From assembly GCA_003222385.1 (NCBI GenBank), contig QHVV01000110.1:10169-46428 (forward strand): DNA of 36,260 bases, given 5' to 3'. The stretch's first letter is position 1, and every line of letters starts with the position of its first letter. The notes under the pieces are model-generated. The model did no database searches and was not told the DNA's origin. It worked only from the letters and a program-made list of their open reading frames with translations. Source of the DNA: Acidobacteriota bacterium. GTDB lineage: Bacteria; Acidobacteriota; Thermoanaerobaculia; UBA5066; Gp7-AA6. The position numbers were made by a program, and so were the translations under genes. Below, piece by piece: positions 4,750 through 26,093 of this stretch.

Positions 4750-5625
4750 ATGGACGGCCTCTCCCCTGCGGAGCTGGACGCAAAACTTCGAGAGTTCCTG
4801 GCCGAGGACGTCGGCCCGGGCGACGTCACCACCGACTCGATCGTCCCGCCCGATGCGGTCGCCGCCGCGGAGATCGTGGCGAAGTCGGACTGCGTGGTCT
4901 CCGGGCTCGCGGCCTCGCGCCGGCTCTTCGAGCTCCTCGATCCGGGACTGACCTGGGAGGACCGGGCGCGGCCGGGATCGAAGGTCCCGGCGGGGACGAC
5001 GCTCGCGCGGCTCTCCGGTAAGGCGCGCGCGATCTTGACCGGCGAGCGGGTGGCTCTGAACCTCCTGCAGAGGATGTGCGGGATCGCGACCGCGACGCAC
5101 CTCTACGTCGACGCGGTCGCAGGCACCGGCTGCCGCATCCTCGGCACGCGCAAGACCGCGCCGGGCCTTCGCGCGTTCGATCGCCTCGCCGTGCGCGACG
5201 GCGGAGCCGCCGACCATCGCTTCGGGCTCTTCGATCGGATCCTCGTCAAGGACAACCACCGCGTGATCGCCGGAGGCGTGGCCGCCGCCCTGGAAGCCGT
5301 GTCCCGGAACGCTCGGGCGAACGTGACCGTCGAGGTCGAGGTCGAATCCGAGGAGGACCTCCGGGAGGCCCTTCGGGGCGGCGTCCGGATCCTGCTGATC
5401 GACAACCAGACCGCCGAGACCGTCGCCCGATGGAAGGCGATCGTGCGCGAGGCCGGAGCCTCCGCCGAGATCGAAGCATCGGGCGACATGACCCTCGCGC
5501 GGGTGCGCGATTATGCGTCCGCCGGCGCGGACTCGATCTCGGTCGGCCGGATCACCCATTCCGTGGAGGCCGCGGACATCTCGCTCGAGATCTCGTCCCC
5601 GGCCGAGGGGATGGGAAACCGGTGA
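4750..5625 (+). CDS. nadC: Nicotinate-nucleotide diphosphorylase (carboxylating), quinolinate phosphoribosyltransferase
   Basis: 291 residues, the family length. It converts quinolinate and PRPP to nicotinic acid mononucleotide with loss of CO2. Recognisable are EDVGPGDVTTDSIVP at the N-terminus, the RVALNLLQRMCGIAT helix, the substrate-binding GTRKTAPGLRAFDRLAVRDGG, HRFGLFDRILVKDNH, VEVEVESEEDL, LIDNQ, EASGDMTL and GADSISVGRITHS, which together give the quinolinate- and PRPP-binding residues of the alpha/beta barrel. The start is ATG 4750; the open frame reaches upstream into nadA, but that part is not NadC-like. There is no strong Shine-Dalgarno sequence. The stop overlaps the nadB GTG start (GTGA), so nadC and nadB are coupled. 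Confidence 0.97.
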   Translation: MDGLSPAELDAKLREFLAEDVGPGDVTTDSIVPPDAVAAAEIVAKSDCVVSGLAASRRLFELLDPGLTWEDRARPGSKVPAGTTLARLSGKARAILTGERVALNLLQRMCGIATATHLYVDAVAGTGCRILGTRKTAPGLRAFDRLAVRDGGAADHRFGLFDRILVKDNHRVIAGGVAAALEAVSRNARANVTVEVEVESEEDLREALRGGVRILLIDNQTAETVARWKAIVREAGASAEIEASGDMTLARVRDYASAGADSISVGRITHSVEAADISLEISSPAEGMGNR

Positions 5626-7220
5626 AGACCGCGACGGACGTCCTCGTGATCGGGACCGGCGTCGCCGGCTGCGCGGCTGCTCTCGCCGCGGCCCGCGACG
5701 GCGCGGAGGTGACGGTCGCGACCCGGGCGCGCGAGGTCACGGAATCCAACACGTTCTACGCCCAGGGGGGCATCGTCGCGCGGCCGCCCGGCGACACGCC
5801 CGAGCTGCTCACCGCCGACATCGTCCGCGCGGGCGACGGGCTGTGCGACCCCGAAGCGGTCGGCCTGCTGGCGCGCGAAGGGCCCGACCTCGTGCGCGAC
5901 CTCCTGATCGACGAGCTCCGGGTGCCGTTCGACCGGGAGGGCGCCGACTTCCACTGGACGCTCGAGGGAGCCCACTCGATGCCGCGGGTCCTGCACGTCA
6001 AGGACGAAACGGGAGCGCCGATCGAACGCGCTCTCATCGACGCGTGCCGACGGGAGAAGAACGTGGGGTGGCTCGTTGGGACCACAGCGGTCGACCTTCT
6101 GACGCTCTCCCATGACTCGCTCGATCCGACCGATCGGTACGACCCGCCGACCGTCGTGGGAGCCCAGCTGCTCGAGCGCCAGACCGGCGAGGTGCGGCCG
6201 CTTCTCGCGCGCGAGACGATCCTCGCGACCGGCGGCCTCGGACAGGTCTATCTCCACACGACCAACCCGCAAGGCGCCCGGGGAGACGGCATCGCGATGG
6301 CGCGGCGCGCCGGCGCGAGGCTCCTGAACCTCGAGTTCATCCAGTTCCATCCGACCGCGCTCGTCCATCCGAAGGGGCGCCTCCTGCTGACCGAGGCCCT
6401 GCGCGGCGAGGGTGCCCGGATCACGGACGCCGCCGGGAACCCGTTTCTCGACAAGGTGCATCCGGACGCCGAGCTCGCCCCCCGCGACGTGGTGGCGCGC
6501 GCGATCCACCAGCGCATGCTCGAACGGGACGAGCCCTACGCGCTCCTCGACATCTCGCACAAGCCGGCAGAGTGGATCCGCGAGCGGTTCCCGGGATTGA
6601 CCCATCGCTGCCTGGAGTACGGCTTCGACCTGACCTCCGGACCCATCCCGGTCGTGCCCGCCGCGCACTACTCGTGCGGCGGGGTATCCGTCGACTTCGA
6701 CGGGGCGACGACTCTCGGCCATCTGCGCGCGGCCGGCGAAGTCTCCTGCACCGGCGTGCACGGCGCGAACCGCCTCGCCTCGACGTCGCTCCTCGAAGGG
6801 CTCCTGTGGGGTTGGAGGTCGGGGCGCGCCGCGGTCCGCGCGATCCGCGCCGAACCTCTCCGCCGCCGGGTCGAGGTCCGCCCGTGGCAGCCGGAGTTCG
6901 AGCCGGTCGATCCCGCCCTGATCGCGCAGGACTGGCTCGTCGTGCGCCACACGATGTGGAACTACGTCGGTCTCCTGCGCTCGGAGAAGCGCCTCGACCG
7001 CGCCGGCCGGATTCTCGGGGAGCTGCGCGACGAGATCGAGAACTTCTATCGCCGCGGAACGATGTCCGACGAGCTCGTCGGGTTGCGCAACGGAATCCAG
7101 ACGGCGCTCGCCATCCATCGGGCCGCGTCGGACAACCGGGTTTCCCGCGGCTCGCACTACCGCGAGAACGGCATCGAGGCCGTTCCGACGCCGAAGCGGA
7201 AGAGAGCCACGCTGCTATAG
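5622..7220 (+). CDS. nadB: L-aspartate oxidase NadB
   Basis: 532 residues; FAD enzyme of the succinate dehydrogenase/fumarate reductase flavoprotein family that oxidises L-aspartate to iminoaspartate for NadA. The N-terminus carries the dinucleotide fold VLVIGTGVAGCAAALAAA. Then come SNTFYAQGGI, EGAHSMPRVLH, ATGGLGQVY, FIQFHPTAL, LLLTEALRGEGARI with the catalytic arginine, HYSCGGVSVD, GEVSCTGVHGANRLASTSL and the C-terminal helical domain ending near HYRENG. The start is GTG 5622, overlapping the nadC stop by 4 bp and preceded by GGGGATGGGA. The much longer open frame upstream is antisense-like read-through of nadC in another frame. Order nadA-nadC-nadB is common in bacteria. Confidence 0.96.
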   Translation: MKTATDVLVIGTGVAGCAAALAAARDGAEVTVATRAREVTESNTFYAQGGIVARPPGDTPELLTADIVRAGDGLCDPEAVGLLAREGPDLVRDLLIDELRVPFDREGADFHWTLEGAHSMPRVLHVKDETGAPIERALIDACRREKNVGWLVGTTAVDLLTLSHDSLDPTDRYDPPTVVGAQLLERQTGEVRPLLARETILATGGLGQVYLHTTNPQGARGDGIAMARRAGARLLNLEFIQFHPTALVHPKGRLLLTEALRGEGARITDAAGNPFLDKVHPDAELAPRDVVARAIHQRMLERDEPYALLDISHKPAEWIRERFPGLTHRCLEYGFDLTSGPIPVVPAAHYSCGGVSVDFDGATTLGHLRAAGEVSCTGVHGANRLASTSLLEGLLWGWRSGRAAVRAIRAEPLRRRVEVRPWQPEFEPVDPALIAQDWLVVRHTMWNYVGLLRSEKRLDRAGRILGELRDEIENFYRRGTMSDELVGLRNGIQTALAIHRAASDNRVSRGSHYRENGIEAVPTPKRKRATLL

Positions 7221-7236
7221 TCGCGCGAACGTTCGC
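7216..7236 (+). promoter_or_regulatory. Possible -10 hexamer and 12-bp palindrome before the 7237 gene
   Basis: TATAGT at 7216-7221 overlaps the nadB stop codon and stands 15 bp before the next ATG. Between them GCGAACGTTCGC (7225-7236) is a perfect 12-bp palindrome ending exactly at the start codon, where a Shine-Dalgarno sequence would normally be; none is visible. It may be an operator or a small hairpin covering the start. It is not the spaced GAAC-N4-GTTC LexA site. Confidence 0.35.
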
Positions 7237-7833
7237 ATGAGCCTTCTCTACATTCATTACGAGTCCGACGAGCGCGCCGGGCGGGTGCAGAAGCTCGCGA
7301 AGAGCGGGGCGCACATCATCGTTTCGGAGCCGCGCTGGCCGGCGTTCTGGGAAATCGCCAAGAGGGAAAAGCCGATCGCGGTCGCGGTCGATTTTTCGCA
7401 CGCGCCGTCGCACGCCCTGGAGACCGCGGATTACATCGCCAAGGCGAAGGAGACCCGCGATTCCGCCCTGTACCTGCTGCGGGTTCCGGAGGACCGCCTG
7501 GACGTCGTTCGAAAACGGCTCCCGCAGGCGGCGATCGTCACCGAGCCGGAGCTCGCCGAGCGGCTCGCCGTGATCGAGCGGGAAGCGCAGGCACGCGCGC
7601 TCGAGAAGAAGGAAGCCGCCGCCGTCGCCCGTCGGACGGCCCAGGCTGCCCGACAGGCCGCGCGGAAGGCGGCCGCCGGACCGGCGAAGCCCGCCCGGCC
7701 CGCGAAGGCCGCGAAGCCTCCGAAGAAAGCAAAACCCGCCGCGAAGAAAGCGGCGTCCGCCGCCCGCCGGAAAGCTGCTCGTCCCGCAAAGAAGGCCGCT
7801 CCGAAGCGGCGCCGGACCGGCCCGAAGAAATAG
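7237..7833 (+). CDS. Receiver-like domain with histone-H1-like Lys/Ala/Pro tail
   Basis: 198 residues in two parts. Residues 1-115 look like a degenerate CheY-type receiver: strand LLYIHY, then IAVAVDFSHAPSHALETADY with an Asp (D52) at the expected phosphorylation position, then SALYLLRVPED. The acidic pair after the first strand and the late conserved Lys are not evident, so phosphorylation is doubtful. After a charged helical stretch (about 108-140), residues 140-198 are a tail of KPA/KAA repeats (AKPARPAKAAKPPKKAKPAA) like the tails of AlgP, HU-like proteins and bacterial H1 homologues, which bind DNA without sequence preference. A nucleoid-associated regulator is inferred. It follows nadB by 16 bp but need not be related. 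No family name is certain. Confidence 0.7.
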   Translation: MSLLYIHYESDERAGRVQKLAKSGAHIIVSEPRWPAFWEIAKREKPIAVAVDFSHAPSHALETADYIAKAKETRDSALYLLRVPEDRLDVVRKRLPQAAIVTEPELAERLAVIEREAQARALEKKEAAAVARRTAQAARQAARKAAAGPAKPARPAKAAKPPKKAKPAAKKAASAARRKAARPAKKAAPKRRRTGPKK

Positions 7834-7878
7834 CGCGAGGGACCGGGTCCGCGGAACGACGATCTCCGAACCGTCCGA

Positions 7879-7884
7879 TAGAAT
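7879..7884 (+). promoter_or_regulatory. Possible -10 element (TAGAAT) for the M20 peptidase gene
   Basis: TAGAAT lies 26 bp before the ATG at 7910, in a 76-bp gap after the gene at 7237-7833. It is in the right position for a start site near 7891 ahead of the GGGAGG ribosome-binding site. No convincing -35 hexamer is seen. Confidence 0.3.
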
Positions 7885-7909
7885 CGGCGCCTTTCGAACG
7901 GGAGGACCG

Positions 7910-17035: not shown

Positions 17036-17041
17036 TATAAT
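17036..17041 (+). promoter_or_regulatory. Consensus TATAAT -10 in the asd / zinc-ribbon gene divergent gap
   Basis: TATAAT ends 17 bp before the ATG at 17059, so transcription would start near 17048 and give a short leader containing GTGAGG. No clear -35 hexamer at 17 bp (the bases are AGTCTA). The hexamer is rare in a GC-rich genome, which makes it a reasonable -10 for the gene at 17059. Confidence 0.4.
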
Positions 17042-17058
17042 CGTGAGGTTCATTGCTC

Positions 17059-17472
17059 ATGAGCTCCGCAACCCCAGGACCCCGATGCCCGCGCTGTCGC
17101 CGGCCCGTCGCCGCGTGGCGGCTCGCTCACTGCGTCTACTGCGGAGAAAGCTTTCCGCCCGACCTGAAAGAGGGATACGAGGCCCCGGAAGCGCTGAAGT
17201 GGATCGAGCGCCCGGCGATTCCGATCGATGCGGCGAGACAGCTCGAGGTGATGAAGGTCCTGCCCTGGGAAGCGAAGAAAAAACCGAAGCCCGCGCTTCT
17301 CTTCGTCGCGGGGCTCGGGGTCGCCGTGTTCGTGACGATCTTCGTCCTGCTCTACGTGATCGCGAGCCGATACATGCCTTCCTTGAGCTTCCTGGTCATC
17401 ATCATCGGCGCGGTCTTCGTGAGCTATCTCGCGTGGGCGTTCGTTCGCGCGTCCCGCCGAGGGACCGGCTGA
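17059..17472 (+). CDS. Zinc-ribbon membrane protein, unknown
   Basis: 137 residues. The N-terminus has a CxxC-CxxC zinc ribbon (PRCPRCRRPVAAWRLAHCVYC). A linker follows with a ProTrp-containing segment (ALKWIERPAIPIDAARQLEV). Two transmembrane helices come next, PALLFVAGLGVAVFVTIFVLL and LSFLVIIIGAVFVSYLAWAFV. The protein is anchored with the ribbon in the cytoplasm. Proteins of this layout are frequent in Acidobacteriota-type genomes, but no function is known. The start ATG 17059 is preferred over a TTG two codons upstream. It stands alone, divergent from asd, with its own promoter-like TATAAT, and the next gene runs in the opposite direction. Confidence 0.75.
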   Translation: MSSATPGPRCPRCRRPVAAWRLAHCVYCGESFPPDLKEGYEAPEALKWIERPAIPIDAARQLEVMKVLPWEAKKKPKPALLFVAGLGVAVFVTIFVLLYVIASRYMPSLSFLVIIIGAVFVSYLAWAFVRASRRGTG

Positions 17473-24092: not shown

Positions 24093-26093
24093 ATGGCGCG
24101 CATCCTCGTCGTCGAAGACTCCCCGGACATCCGCGTTCTCGTGCGGATGCTGCTCGAGGCGGGCGGTCACGAGGTCACGACGGCGGGGGACGGCCGCGCT
24201 GGCGTCGACGCCGCGCGGCGGGAGCGGCCCGATCTCGTTCTCATGGACCTGTCGCTGCCGGTCCTCTCCGGATGGGAGGCGACGAAGGAGATCAAGAAGG
24301 ACCCGGGCACCGCCGGGATCCCGGTAGTCGCCGTCACCGCGCACGCCATGCACGGCGACCGCGAACGCGCCCTCGCCGCGGGGTGCGACGGTTTCATCCC
24401 CAAGCCGATCGACGGCGAGACGTTCGAGCCGCTCGTTCGTTCCTACCTGCGGTCCGCATCGGAAGAGCCCGTTCCGACGGCTTCCGGAGATTCGCCGCCG
24501 GCGGAAACGAAGCCGACCGTGACGGAGCCGGGTCGGATCCTGGTCGTGGACGATCACGACGAAGTCGCGCGGATCATCCGCGCCGACCTCGAGAGCGAAG
24601 GGCACGAGGTCGTCGTCGCGGGGACGCTCGAGGAAGCTTCATCGGTCGCGCAGGACGACCGGCCGTTCGACCTTGCGATCGTGGACGTGATGCTCGGAGA
24701 GGAGTCCGGGTACGACCTCGCGGCGGAGCTCGTGTCCCGCTCCGGCGAATATCTGCCGGTGCTGCTCGTGACCGCCGGAGAGATCGACCGCGAGAAAGGT
24801 TTTGCGGCGGGCGCGGACGACTTCATCGCCAAACCGCTGGACCCGACGGAGCTCGAGGCGCGCGCCCGATCCTTGATCCGCGTCGGCCGGGCGATCCGGT
24901 CCCAGGGACGGGCGGCCCGCGAGCGTTCCGAAGCGTACGAGAAGCTCGTCGAGCTCGATCGGCTGAAGTCGGACTTCCTTTCCACGGTTTCGCACGAGCT
25001 CCGCACACCGCTGAACACGATCATCCTGCTCTCCCACCTGATCGAGCGGGAGGGGCACACACCGACCGACGAAGAGCGCCGGCTGCACGACATCCACGTC
25101 ATCCGAGAGAGCGCCGAAACGCTCCTCCGGATGATCAACAACATCCTCGACCTCGCGAAGCTCGAGGCGGGACAGCGGGACCTCCACCCGCAGCAGGCGC
25201 CTCTCCGGCCGCTCCTCGCCGAGACGTCGGACTTACTCGAGCCGCAGGCTCGCGCGAAGGGCCTGGCGCTCGACACGGAGATCGCCTCCGATCTGCCGGA
25301 GACCGCCGTGCTCGACCGGGAAAAGGTTATTCGGGTTCTCATCAACCTTCTCTCGAACGCCGTCAAGTACACGCAAACCGGGCGCGTCGTGCTGCGGGCG
25401 GCGCCGTGGCAGGACAGCATCACGTTCGAGGTCGAGGACACGGGCAACGGCGTGCCCGCCCACCTCGCGGCGAAGGTGTTCGAGCCGTTCCGGCAGATCC
25501 GCACGGGAGACACCGAGGCTTCGCGCGGGAGCGGTCTCGGGTTGACCATCTCCAAGCAGCTGGTCGAGCTCATGGGCGGCGATCTCCTCTTCGACAGCCG
25601 CGAGGGGGAGGGAACCCGCGTGTCCTTCACCCTGCCGCAGCTCCGCGAGCTGCTCGCCGAGGGGATCGCGGCCGCCGCGCCGGCGGTCGCCGCGAGCGGG
25701 AAGGGGCGGCGGGTCCTGGTCGTCGAGGACGACCCATTCTCGCGCTACGGGCTGAAGAGTCTCCTCGAGTCGGAAGGCTACGAAGTCGCGGAAGCGGCCG
25801 CCCTCGCGGAGGCCGAAGAGGCGATCGAGCGGCGGACGCCGGACGTCCTCGTCCTCGACATCACGCTGCCGGACGGAGACGGCGCCGAGTGGCTTCAGCT
25901 GCTCGTCAAACGCGAAGGTCGATTGCCCTTTCCGGTCCTCGCGCTCACGGGGGTGACCGCCGACGAAGACACCCGGAGGATCGAGCGCGCCGGCGTCACC
26001 GCGATCCTGCAGAAGCCGGTCAACGTGGGGCTTCTCTTCCAGGCGCTCCAGAGCTGCCAAGGCGCGCGGGAGCCGGTTGCCCGGGGACGGTAG
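24093..26093 (+). CDS. Soluble hybrid histidine kinase: REC-REC-HisKA-HATPase-REC
   Basis: 666 residues, no membrane helix. Receiver 1 (1-118: ILVVEDSPDIRVLV, D52, FIPKPID) and receiver 2 (about 147-262: D198 in LAIVDVMLGEESGYDL, FIAKPLDP) are at the N-terminus. The HisKA domain has H301 in STVSHELRTPLNTI, then HATPase (N-box LINLLSNAVKYTQTG, G-box EDTGNGVPAH and GSGLGLTISKQLVELMGGDL). A third receiver ends the protein (about 540-660: VVEDDPFSRYGL, D589, LQKPVNVG). All three receivers keep the acidic pocket, Asp and Lys. Such kinases receive and pass on phosphate in multi-step relays. The start ATG 24093 is 17 bp after the previous kinase's stop, so the two are most likely one transcript. A separate output protein is not encoded beside them, except possibly the divergent NtrC-like regulator. 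Confidence 0.9.
   Translation: MARILVVEDSPDIRVLVRMLLEAGGHEVTTAGDGRAGVDAARRERPDLVLMDLSLPVLSGWEATKEIKKDPGTAGIPVVAVTAHAMHGDRERALAAGCDGFIPKPIDGETFEPLVRSYLRSASEEPVPTASGDSPPAETKPTVTEPGRILVVDDHDEVARIIRADLESEGHEVVVAGTLEEASSVAQDDRPFDLAIVDVMLGEESGYDLAAELVSRSGEYLPVLLVTAGEIDREKGFAAGADDFIAKPLDPTELEARARSLIRVGRAIRSQGRAARERSEAYEKLVELDRLKSDFLSTVSHELRTPLNTIILLSHLIEREGHTPTDEERRLHDIHVIRESAETLLRMINNILDLAKLEAGQRDLHPQQAPLRPLLAETSDLLEPQARAKGLALDTEIASDLPETAVLDREKVIRVLINLLSNAVKYTQTGRVVLRAAPWQDSITFEVEDTGNGVPAHLAAKVFEPFRQIRTGDTEASRGSGLGLTISKQLVELMGGDLLFDSREGEGTRVSFTLPQLRELLAEGIAAAAPAVAASGKGRRVLVVEDDPFSRYGLKSLLESEGYEVAEAAALAEAEEAIERRTPDVLVLDITLPDGDGAEWLQLLVKREGRLPFPVLALTGVTADEDTRRIERAGVTAILQKPVNVGLLFQALQSCQGAREPVARGR

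Follow-up and report, generated by a model that had tools for sequence, protein, structure and literature searches.

The DNA analyzed here, hereafter the window, is a 36,260-nucleotide stretch from the genome of a soil bacterium of the Acidobacteriota (contig QHVV01000110.1 of assembly GCA_003222385.1), and the gene under study occupies positions 7237-7833 of its forward strand, from an ATG start to a TAG stop. It encodes a 198-residue protein composed of a pseudo-receiver, a long helix, and a basic tail. The genomic setting is a nadA-nadC-nadB run, with the gene lying 16 nt 3' of the nadB frame (L-aspartate oxidase; 5076-7220, forward strand; TIGR00551, 453.5 bits against a cut-off of 452.75) and 76 nt 5' of a gene encoding an M20-family dipeptidase (7910-9286, forward strand; PF01546, E 1.5e-18). 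Homology within the nadB frame begins near codon 184, which places the true nadB start near 5619. Elsewhere in the window, an open reading frame at 24093-26093 combines tandem receiver domains with a hybrid histidine kinase and is possibly a phosphorelay.

Of 19 genomes examined in the order, 5 carry the gene, counting the window's own genome (G000), and the orthologues share 48-68% identity over residues 1-114. Two come from the same family (G001 and G002, with 68% and 66% identity) and two from the same order (G004 and G006, about 49-50%). Between G004 and G006, which belong to one genus, the 114-residue core differs by 36 synonymous and 3 non-synonymous codon changes and the 58 codons that follow by 25 and 7, respectively; these counts indicate strong purifying selection on the core and weaker purifying selection on the helix region. 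With orthologues in four other genomes and such selection on its core, the open reading frame is a real gene. Its upstream neighbor is nadB in G000, G001, G002, and G006 (the contig ends on that side in G004), and the M20 gene lies downstream in G000, G001, G004, and G006, a contig end being reached in the remaining genome. When 149 genomes of the class were searched with a profile, no further members of this group, which we refer to as the tail clade, came to light; the rest of the wider family recovered there consisted of DUF3052-like fusions, described below, and the two weakest matches were ordinary OmpR-type regulators. No tail gene was seen 3' of nadB in the order's other family (f2), and among the genomes searched the tail gene is confined to two families of one order. 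In genome G008 (locus L089), a short tandem repeat, which can be read as SREAPKSRLPGKRRNRGFPGSAEIAA, forms a long array downstream of nadB, with a DUF4332/HhH-like open reading frame nearby on the opposite strand.

An earlier, sequence-only reading of this locus had reported that the gene lacks a Shine-Dalgarno sequence and carries a palindrome at its start, and had suggested control by a regulator or by structure. The sequence bears out the missing Shine-Dalgarno sequence, and the palindrome GCGAACGTTCGC (7225-7236) exists as a perfect 12-bp repeat. As a regulatory site it was rejected: it is single-copy in the genome and missing from the orthologues, and given that the 36-kb window holds 36 perfect 12-bp palindromes, approximately one per kilobase, its occurrence here is attributed to chance. 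A search against Rfam revealed no RNA elements in the window. The proposed control by palindrome or structure is unsupported, and the absent Shine-Dalgarno sequence is better explained by a conserved -10-like hexamer, TATAGT (7216-7221, forward strand), which overlaps the nadB stop codon 15 nt 5' of the ATG. The same hexamer is present in G001 and G002, 9 nt 5' of the orthologue ATG, and it is rare in the genome: a count of TATA[AG]T over both strands of 698 kb gave 14, of which 5 lie 4-19 nt before an ATG. Transcription usually starts about 7 nt 3' of a -10 box. The conservation of TATAGT in three genomes only hints at a leaderless or short-leader mRNA: in G001 and G002 it would have no leader or almost none, and in the window's gene a leader of less than 10 nt; such an mRNA would account for the missing Shine-Dalgarno sequence. 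A scan of positions 5000-10000 of the window found no consensus sigma-70 promoter, so that this reading of TATAGT is based only on conservation. Besides this one, both strands of the window together contain a single TATA[AG]T, a TATAAT 17 nt before an ATG (17036-17062), which is possibly another short-leader start.

The sequence-only reading had described the N-terminal part of the protein as receiver-like, and comparison of its predicted structure with receiver (REC) domains supports this. In an AlphaFold2 model of moderate quality built from three sequences (pLDDT 71, pTM 0.68), residues 1-102, up to the end of beta5 (7237-7542, forward strand), belong to a domain with the order b1-a1-b2-a2-b3-a3-b4-a4-(b5)-a5, which is the order found in CheY, and strand b3 ends at D52. 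A Foldseek search of the PDB returned receivers as all of its top 15 matches (probability 0.99-1.00, TM-scores of about 0.5-0.6) and as most of its top 50, with a best E of 2e-3, none falling below 1e-3. Independently of the structure, profile comparisons with hhalign linked the tail clade to a family of fused receiver-like proteins (REC-DUF3052; 97.9%, E 4.5e-13), and that family to canonical receivers (97.0%, E 1e-10). The REC-DUF3052 profile also matched many receivers in the PDB, at E values down to 1.8e-4, and the structures matched include FrzS (2gkg), a pseudo-receiver of solved structure. Direct comparison of the tail clade with canonical receivers was weak (76%, E 2e-5), and the tail-clade profile alone found no receiver in the PDB using hmmsearch, such that the case for homology runs through the intermediate REC-DUF3052 family. 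No member scanned reached the cut-off of Response_reg or any other Pfam model, the whole protein gave nothing above cut-off and only low-complexity matches against Pfam and NCBIfam, and a sequence search of the PDB with the full protein gave no useful match. The isolated domain's only Pfam trace is Usp, at an E of 0.02 and below cut-off, which would favor another Rossmann-like or Usp-like fold; given that structure search and profile comparisons both point to receivers, we consider such a fold extremely improbable. Homology of the N-terminal domain to receivers, in degenerate form, is therefore supported.

When 37 members of the family are aligned with two OmpR-type receivers, the extent to which the active site has degenerated becomes visible. 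The Mg-binding acidic pair (D-D) of receivers is replaced throughout the family, mostly by H-W/F/Y; most relatives carry H-W, and the window's protein carries H7-Y8 (7255-7260, forward strand). Arg or His stands in place of the conserved Thr (R82 in this protein), and the Lys-bearing loop is deleted in 37 of 37 members. The phospho-acceptor Asp is kept in 35 of the 37, with Val in L067 and Ser in L074. In the window's protein it is D52, within the segment DFSHAPSHALE (residues 52-62; 7390-7422, forward strand), which carries a family motif around D52 and P57, both invariant in the tail-clade alignment (A4). The earlier claim that only the Asp is preserved was thereby upheld, D52 being the sole one left among the five canonical receiver residues. 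A pseudo-receiver has been defined as a receiver without any one of these five residues (Bourret et al. 2025, PMC12632262). With a recognizable receiver fold, a replaced acidic pair and Thr, and no Lys loop, the N-terminal domain is a pseudo-receiver under this definition and departs from canonical, CheY-like receivers. With pseudo-receivers and atypical response regulators it shares a receiver fold devoid of the residues needed for phosphotransfer, but differs in scoring below cut-off with every Pfam model for pseudo-receivers or Response_reg. With aspartate-less receivers it shares a phosphorylation-independent receiver fold; it is not one of them, given that the clade has kept D52 without exception. 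Retention of the Asp in the tail clade and in nearly all relatives could mean that the protein is still a phospho-switch, with D52 taking phosphate from a small-molecule donor or an unusual kinase and the modification altering the contacts of the tail. Loss of the Mg2+-binding acidic pair, substitution of Thr by Arg or His, and deletion of the Lys loop in every member, together with loss of the Asp itself in two relatives, make such a phospho-switch highly unlikely.

The receiver-like half of the protein belongs to a family that extends across the phylum. Among 396 Acidobacteriota genomes sampled phylum-wide, 52 match the profile at E <1e-8; the roughly 34 hits with E <1e-18 are family members, and the weaker hits are mixed with ordinary receivers. 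In nearly all relatives inspected, the receiver-like domain is followed by a domain with the motif S-G-T-P-L-x-K-K-L-G or a variant thereof, which resembles DUF3052 (PF11253) at an E of 0.002-0.02, below cut-off. These fusions comprise L036-L044, most of L051-L072, and L075-L077, and no database name was found for them. They constitute a phylum-wide Acidobacteriota fusion family in which both halves fall below Pfam cut-offs in the members scanned. At least one short stand-alone member also occurs (L073), and L074 and L060 seem to be damaged or incomplete. The family thus has at least three architectures: the DUF3052-like fusion, the receiver-like domain alone, and the receiver-like domain with a basic tail. 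The earlier statement that the protein has no named family stands insofar as a database name is lacking; its receiver half nonetheless belongs to a recognizable Acidobacteriota family, in which a DUF3052-like domain is the usual fusion partner.

The tail clade and the fusions share a homologous receiver-like domain (mostly with H-W for the acidic pair), the retained Asp, a D-L-x-x-x-P-S-x-G-R motif, and a shortened b4-b5 region. They differ in that the fusions have a DUF3052-like C-terminal domain where the helix and basic tail stand here, and in f2 the fusions are not located beside nadB. The window's protein thus has the receiver-like domain of the REC-DUF3052 family and not its C-terminal domain. 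PF11253 matched nothing in G000, G001, G002, G004, or G006, and because the model also misses most of the divergent fused copies, absence of a DUF3052-like domain from the tail-clade genomes is only suggestive. In a phylogenetic tree the tail clade is monophyletic (support 99/97) but sits on a long stem, where long-branch attraction may be at work, and the tree assigns it neither a definite place among the DUF3052 forms nor an exact sister.

In the position of the DUF3052-like domain, the tail-clade protein has a helix and a tail. In the full-length AlphaFold2 model, helix alpha5 is lengthened to 44 residues rich in E, K, R, and A (residues 103-146; 7543-7674, forward strand), and is followed by a disordered K/A/P/R-rich tail of histone-H1/AlgP-like composition (residues 147-198; 7675-7830, forward strand), with a per-block pLDDT of about 50 and no secondary structure. 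The sequence-only reading had placed a Lys/Ala/Pro-rich tail of about 60 residues after the receiver-like domain; the composition holds, but the disordered part is nearer 50 residues and lies behind the 44-residue helix. Across four orthologues, the last 60 residues consist of 88-92% K+R+A+P and have a net charge of +19 to +24 (+24 in the window's protein), in contrast to a core that is near neutral; tail composition in G006 was counted in frame past an in-frame TAG. The composition is retained while the sequence drifts, and each of the four tails has retained a K-rich end (KKKK or PKK). When 698 kb (19% of the genome) was scanned by composition, this K/A/P/R stretch was the only one of its kind among 4,216 frames, so the tail does not reflect a genome-wide composition effect. 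When the same genome was searched with the tail by alignment score, only the tail itself was found, in a search where low-complexity handling may hide others.

The tail might instead be a passive, drifting low-complexity extension of a receiver-like domain that functions alone, perhaps regulating NAD synthesis or the peptidase. Conservation is poor beyond residue 114, where the sequence varies in length from 73 to 111 residues. In the G006 orthologue (contig C112, L005) the in-frame TAG follows residue 151 and precedes the K/P-rich part, and both frame and composition continue past it. The TAG may truly shorten the protein, in which case the tail would be dispensable in G006, or it may reflect an error in the draft genome. 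The gene also keeps its place beside nadB and the M20 gene in both families that have it. Against these points, the charge, the K/A/P/R composition, and the K-rich end persist in all four tails despite drift, and the tail has no counterpart in the 698 kb scanned. We therefore regard a passive tail as unlikely, at around one chance in five.

The closest parallels to the tail are AlgP (AlgR3) and PhaF of Pseudomonas, in which a structured N-terminal part precedes a disordered, K/A/P-rich, H1-like tail. The tails of these proteins have a known or presumed DNA-binding activity and position granules; a nucleoid-tethering model has been put forward for them (PMC9239181). Their N-terminal domains are not receivers but alpha-helical (AlgP) or granule-associated (PhaF), and their tails are long tandem KPAA repeats, whereas the tail described here shares their cationic, disordered character and composition but not their repeat structure, its only periodicity being an 18-bp unit in 2.2 copies at 7673-7712. 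Pseudo-receivers and H1-like tails are each known; their pairing was not found, and no receiver with an H1-like tail as its output is reported, in the literature searched. AlgP, whose tail is the nearest by composition, associates with polyphosphate granules (PMC9239181), and polyphosphate kinase 1 is present in four of the five genomes carrying the gene, which would fit a tail that binds polyphosphate or RNA in place of chromosomal DNA and a protein that organizes granules or ribonucleoprotein. The enzyme was not detected in the window's own genome, however, which is 95% complete, and the gene neighborhood contains nothing related to polyphosphate or RNA. Such a role appears about as unlikely as a passive tail.

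We give about an even chance to the leading mechanism, a phosphorylation-independent adaptor in which the pseudo-receiver binds a partner, the helix dimerizes or spaces the protein, and the cationic tail holds DNA. Having lost most of its active site, the pseudo-receiver would probably be unable to bind Mg2+ or to catalyze phosphotransfer by the normal route; its most probable role would be that of a constitutive protein-protein interaction module. The 44-residue alpha5 helix could dimerize the protein or act as a spacer, while the cationic tail would use non-specific electrostatic contacts to anchor it to the nucleoid or, with lower probability, to RNA or polyphosphate. The binding partner of the pseudo-receiver would thereby be brought to DNA, as proposed for AlgP and PhaF. 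Dimerization, DNA binding, tethering, and the identity of the partner are elements that we infer, whereas the reality of the gene, its conservation, its homology to receivers, the lost active site, the anatomy of helix and tail, and the missing DUF3052-like domain are computed results. The neighbors nadB and the M20 peptidase do not indicate chromosome biology, which counts against a nucleoid tether; so do the moderate structural model, the lack of PDB receivers among the hits of the tail-clade profile alone, the tail's lack of regular KPAA repeats, and the TAG ahead of the basic tail in G006. A signaling fold coupled to nucleoid binding, as first suggested by the sequence-only reading, is plausible by analogy with these systems.

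A 2025 review describes the on-off switching of bacterial pseudo-receivers as a mystery (PMC12632262). Given that a single degenerate receiver occurs here in at least three architectures, the family offers a natural comparison of outputs. It is conceivable, albeit somewhat short of an even chance, that in this one order, where a basic tail stands in the position of the relatives' DUF3052-like domain, a phosphorylation-independent pseudo-receiver puts a partner on the nucleoid by means of an H1-like tail. If the tail does bind DNA, an H1-like disordered tail would join the known outputs of receiver-type domains.
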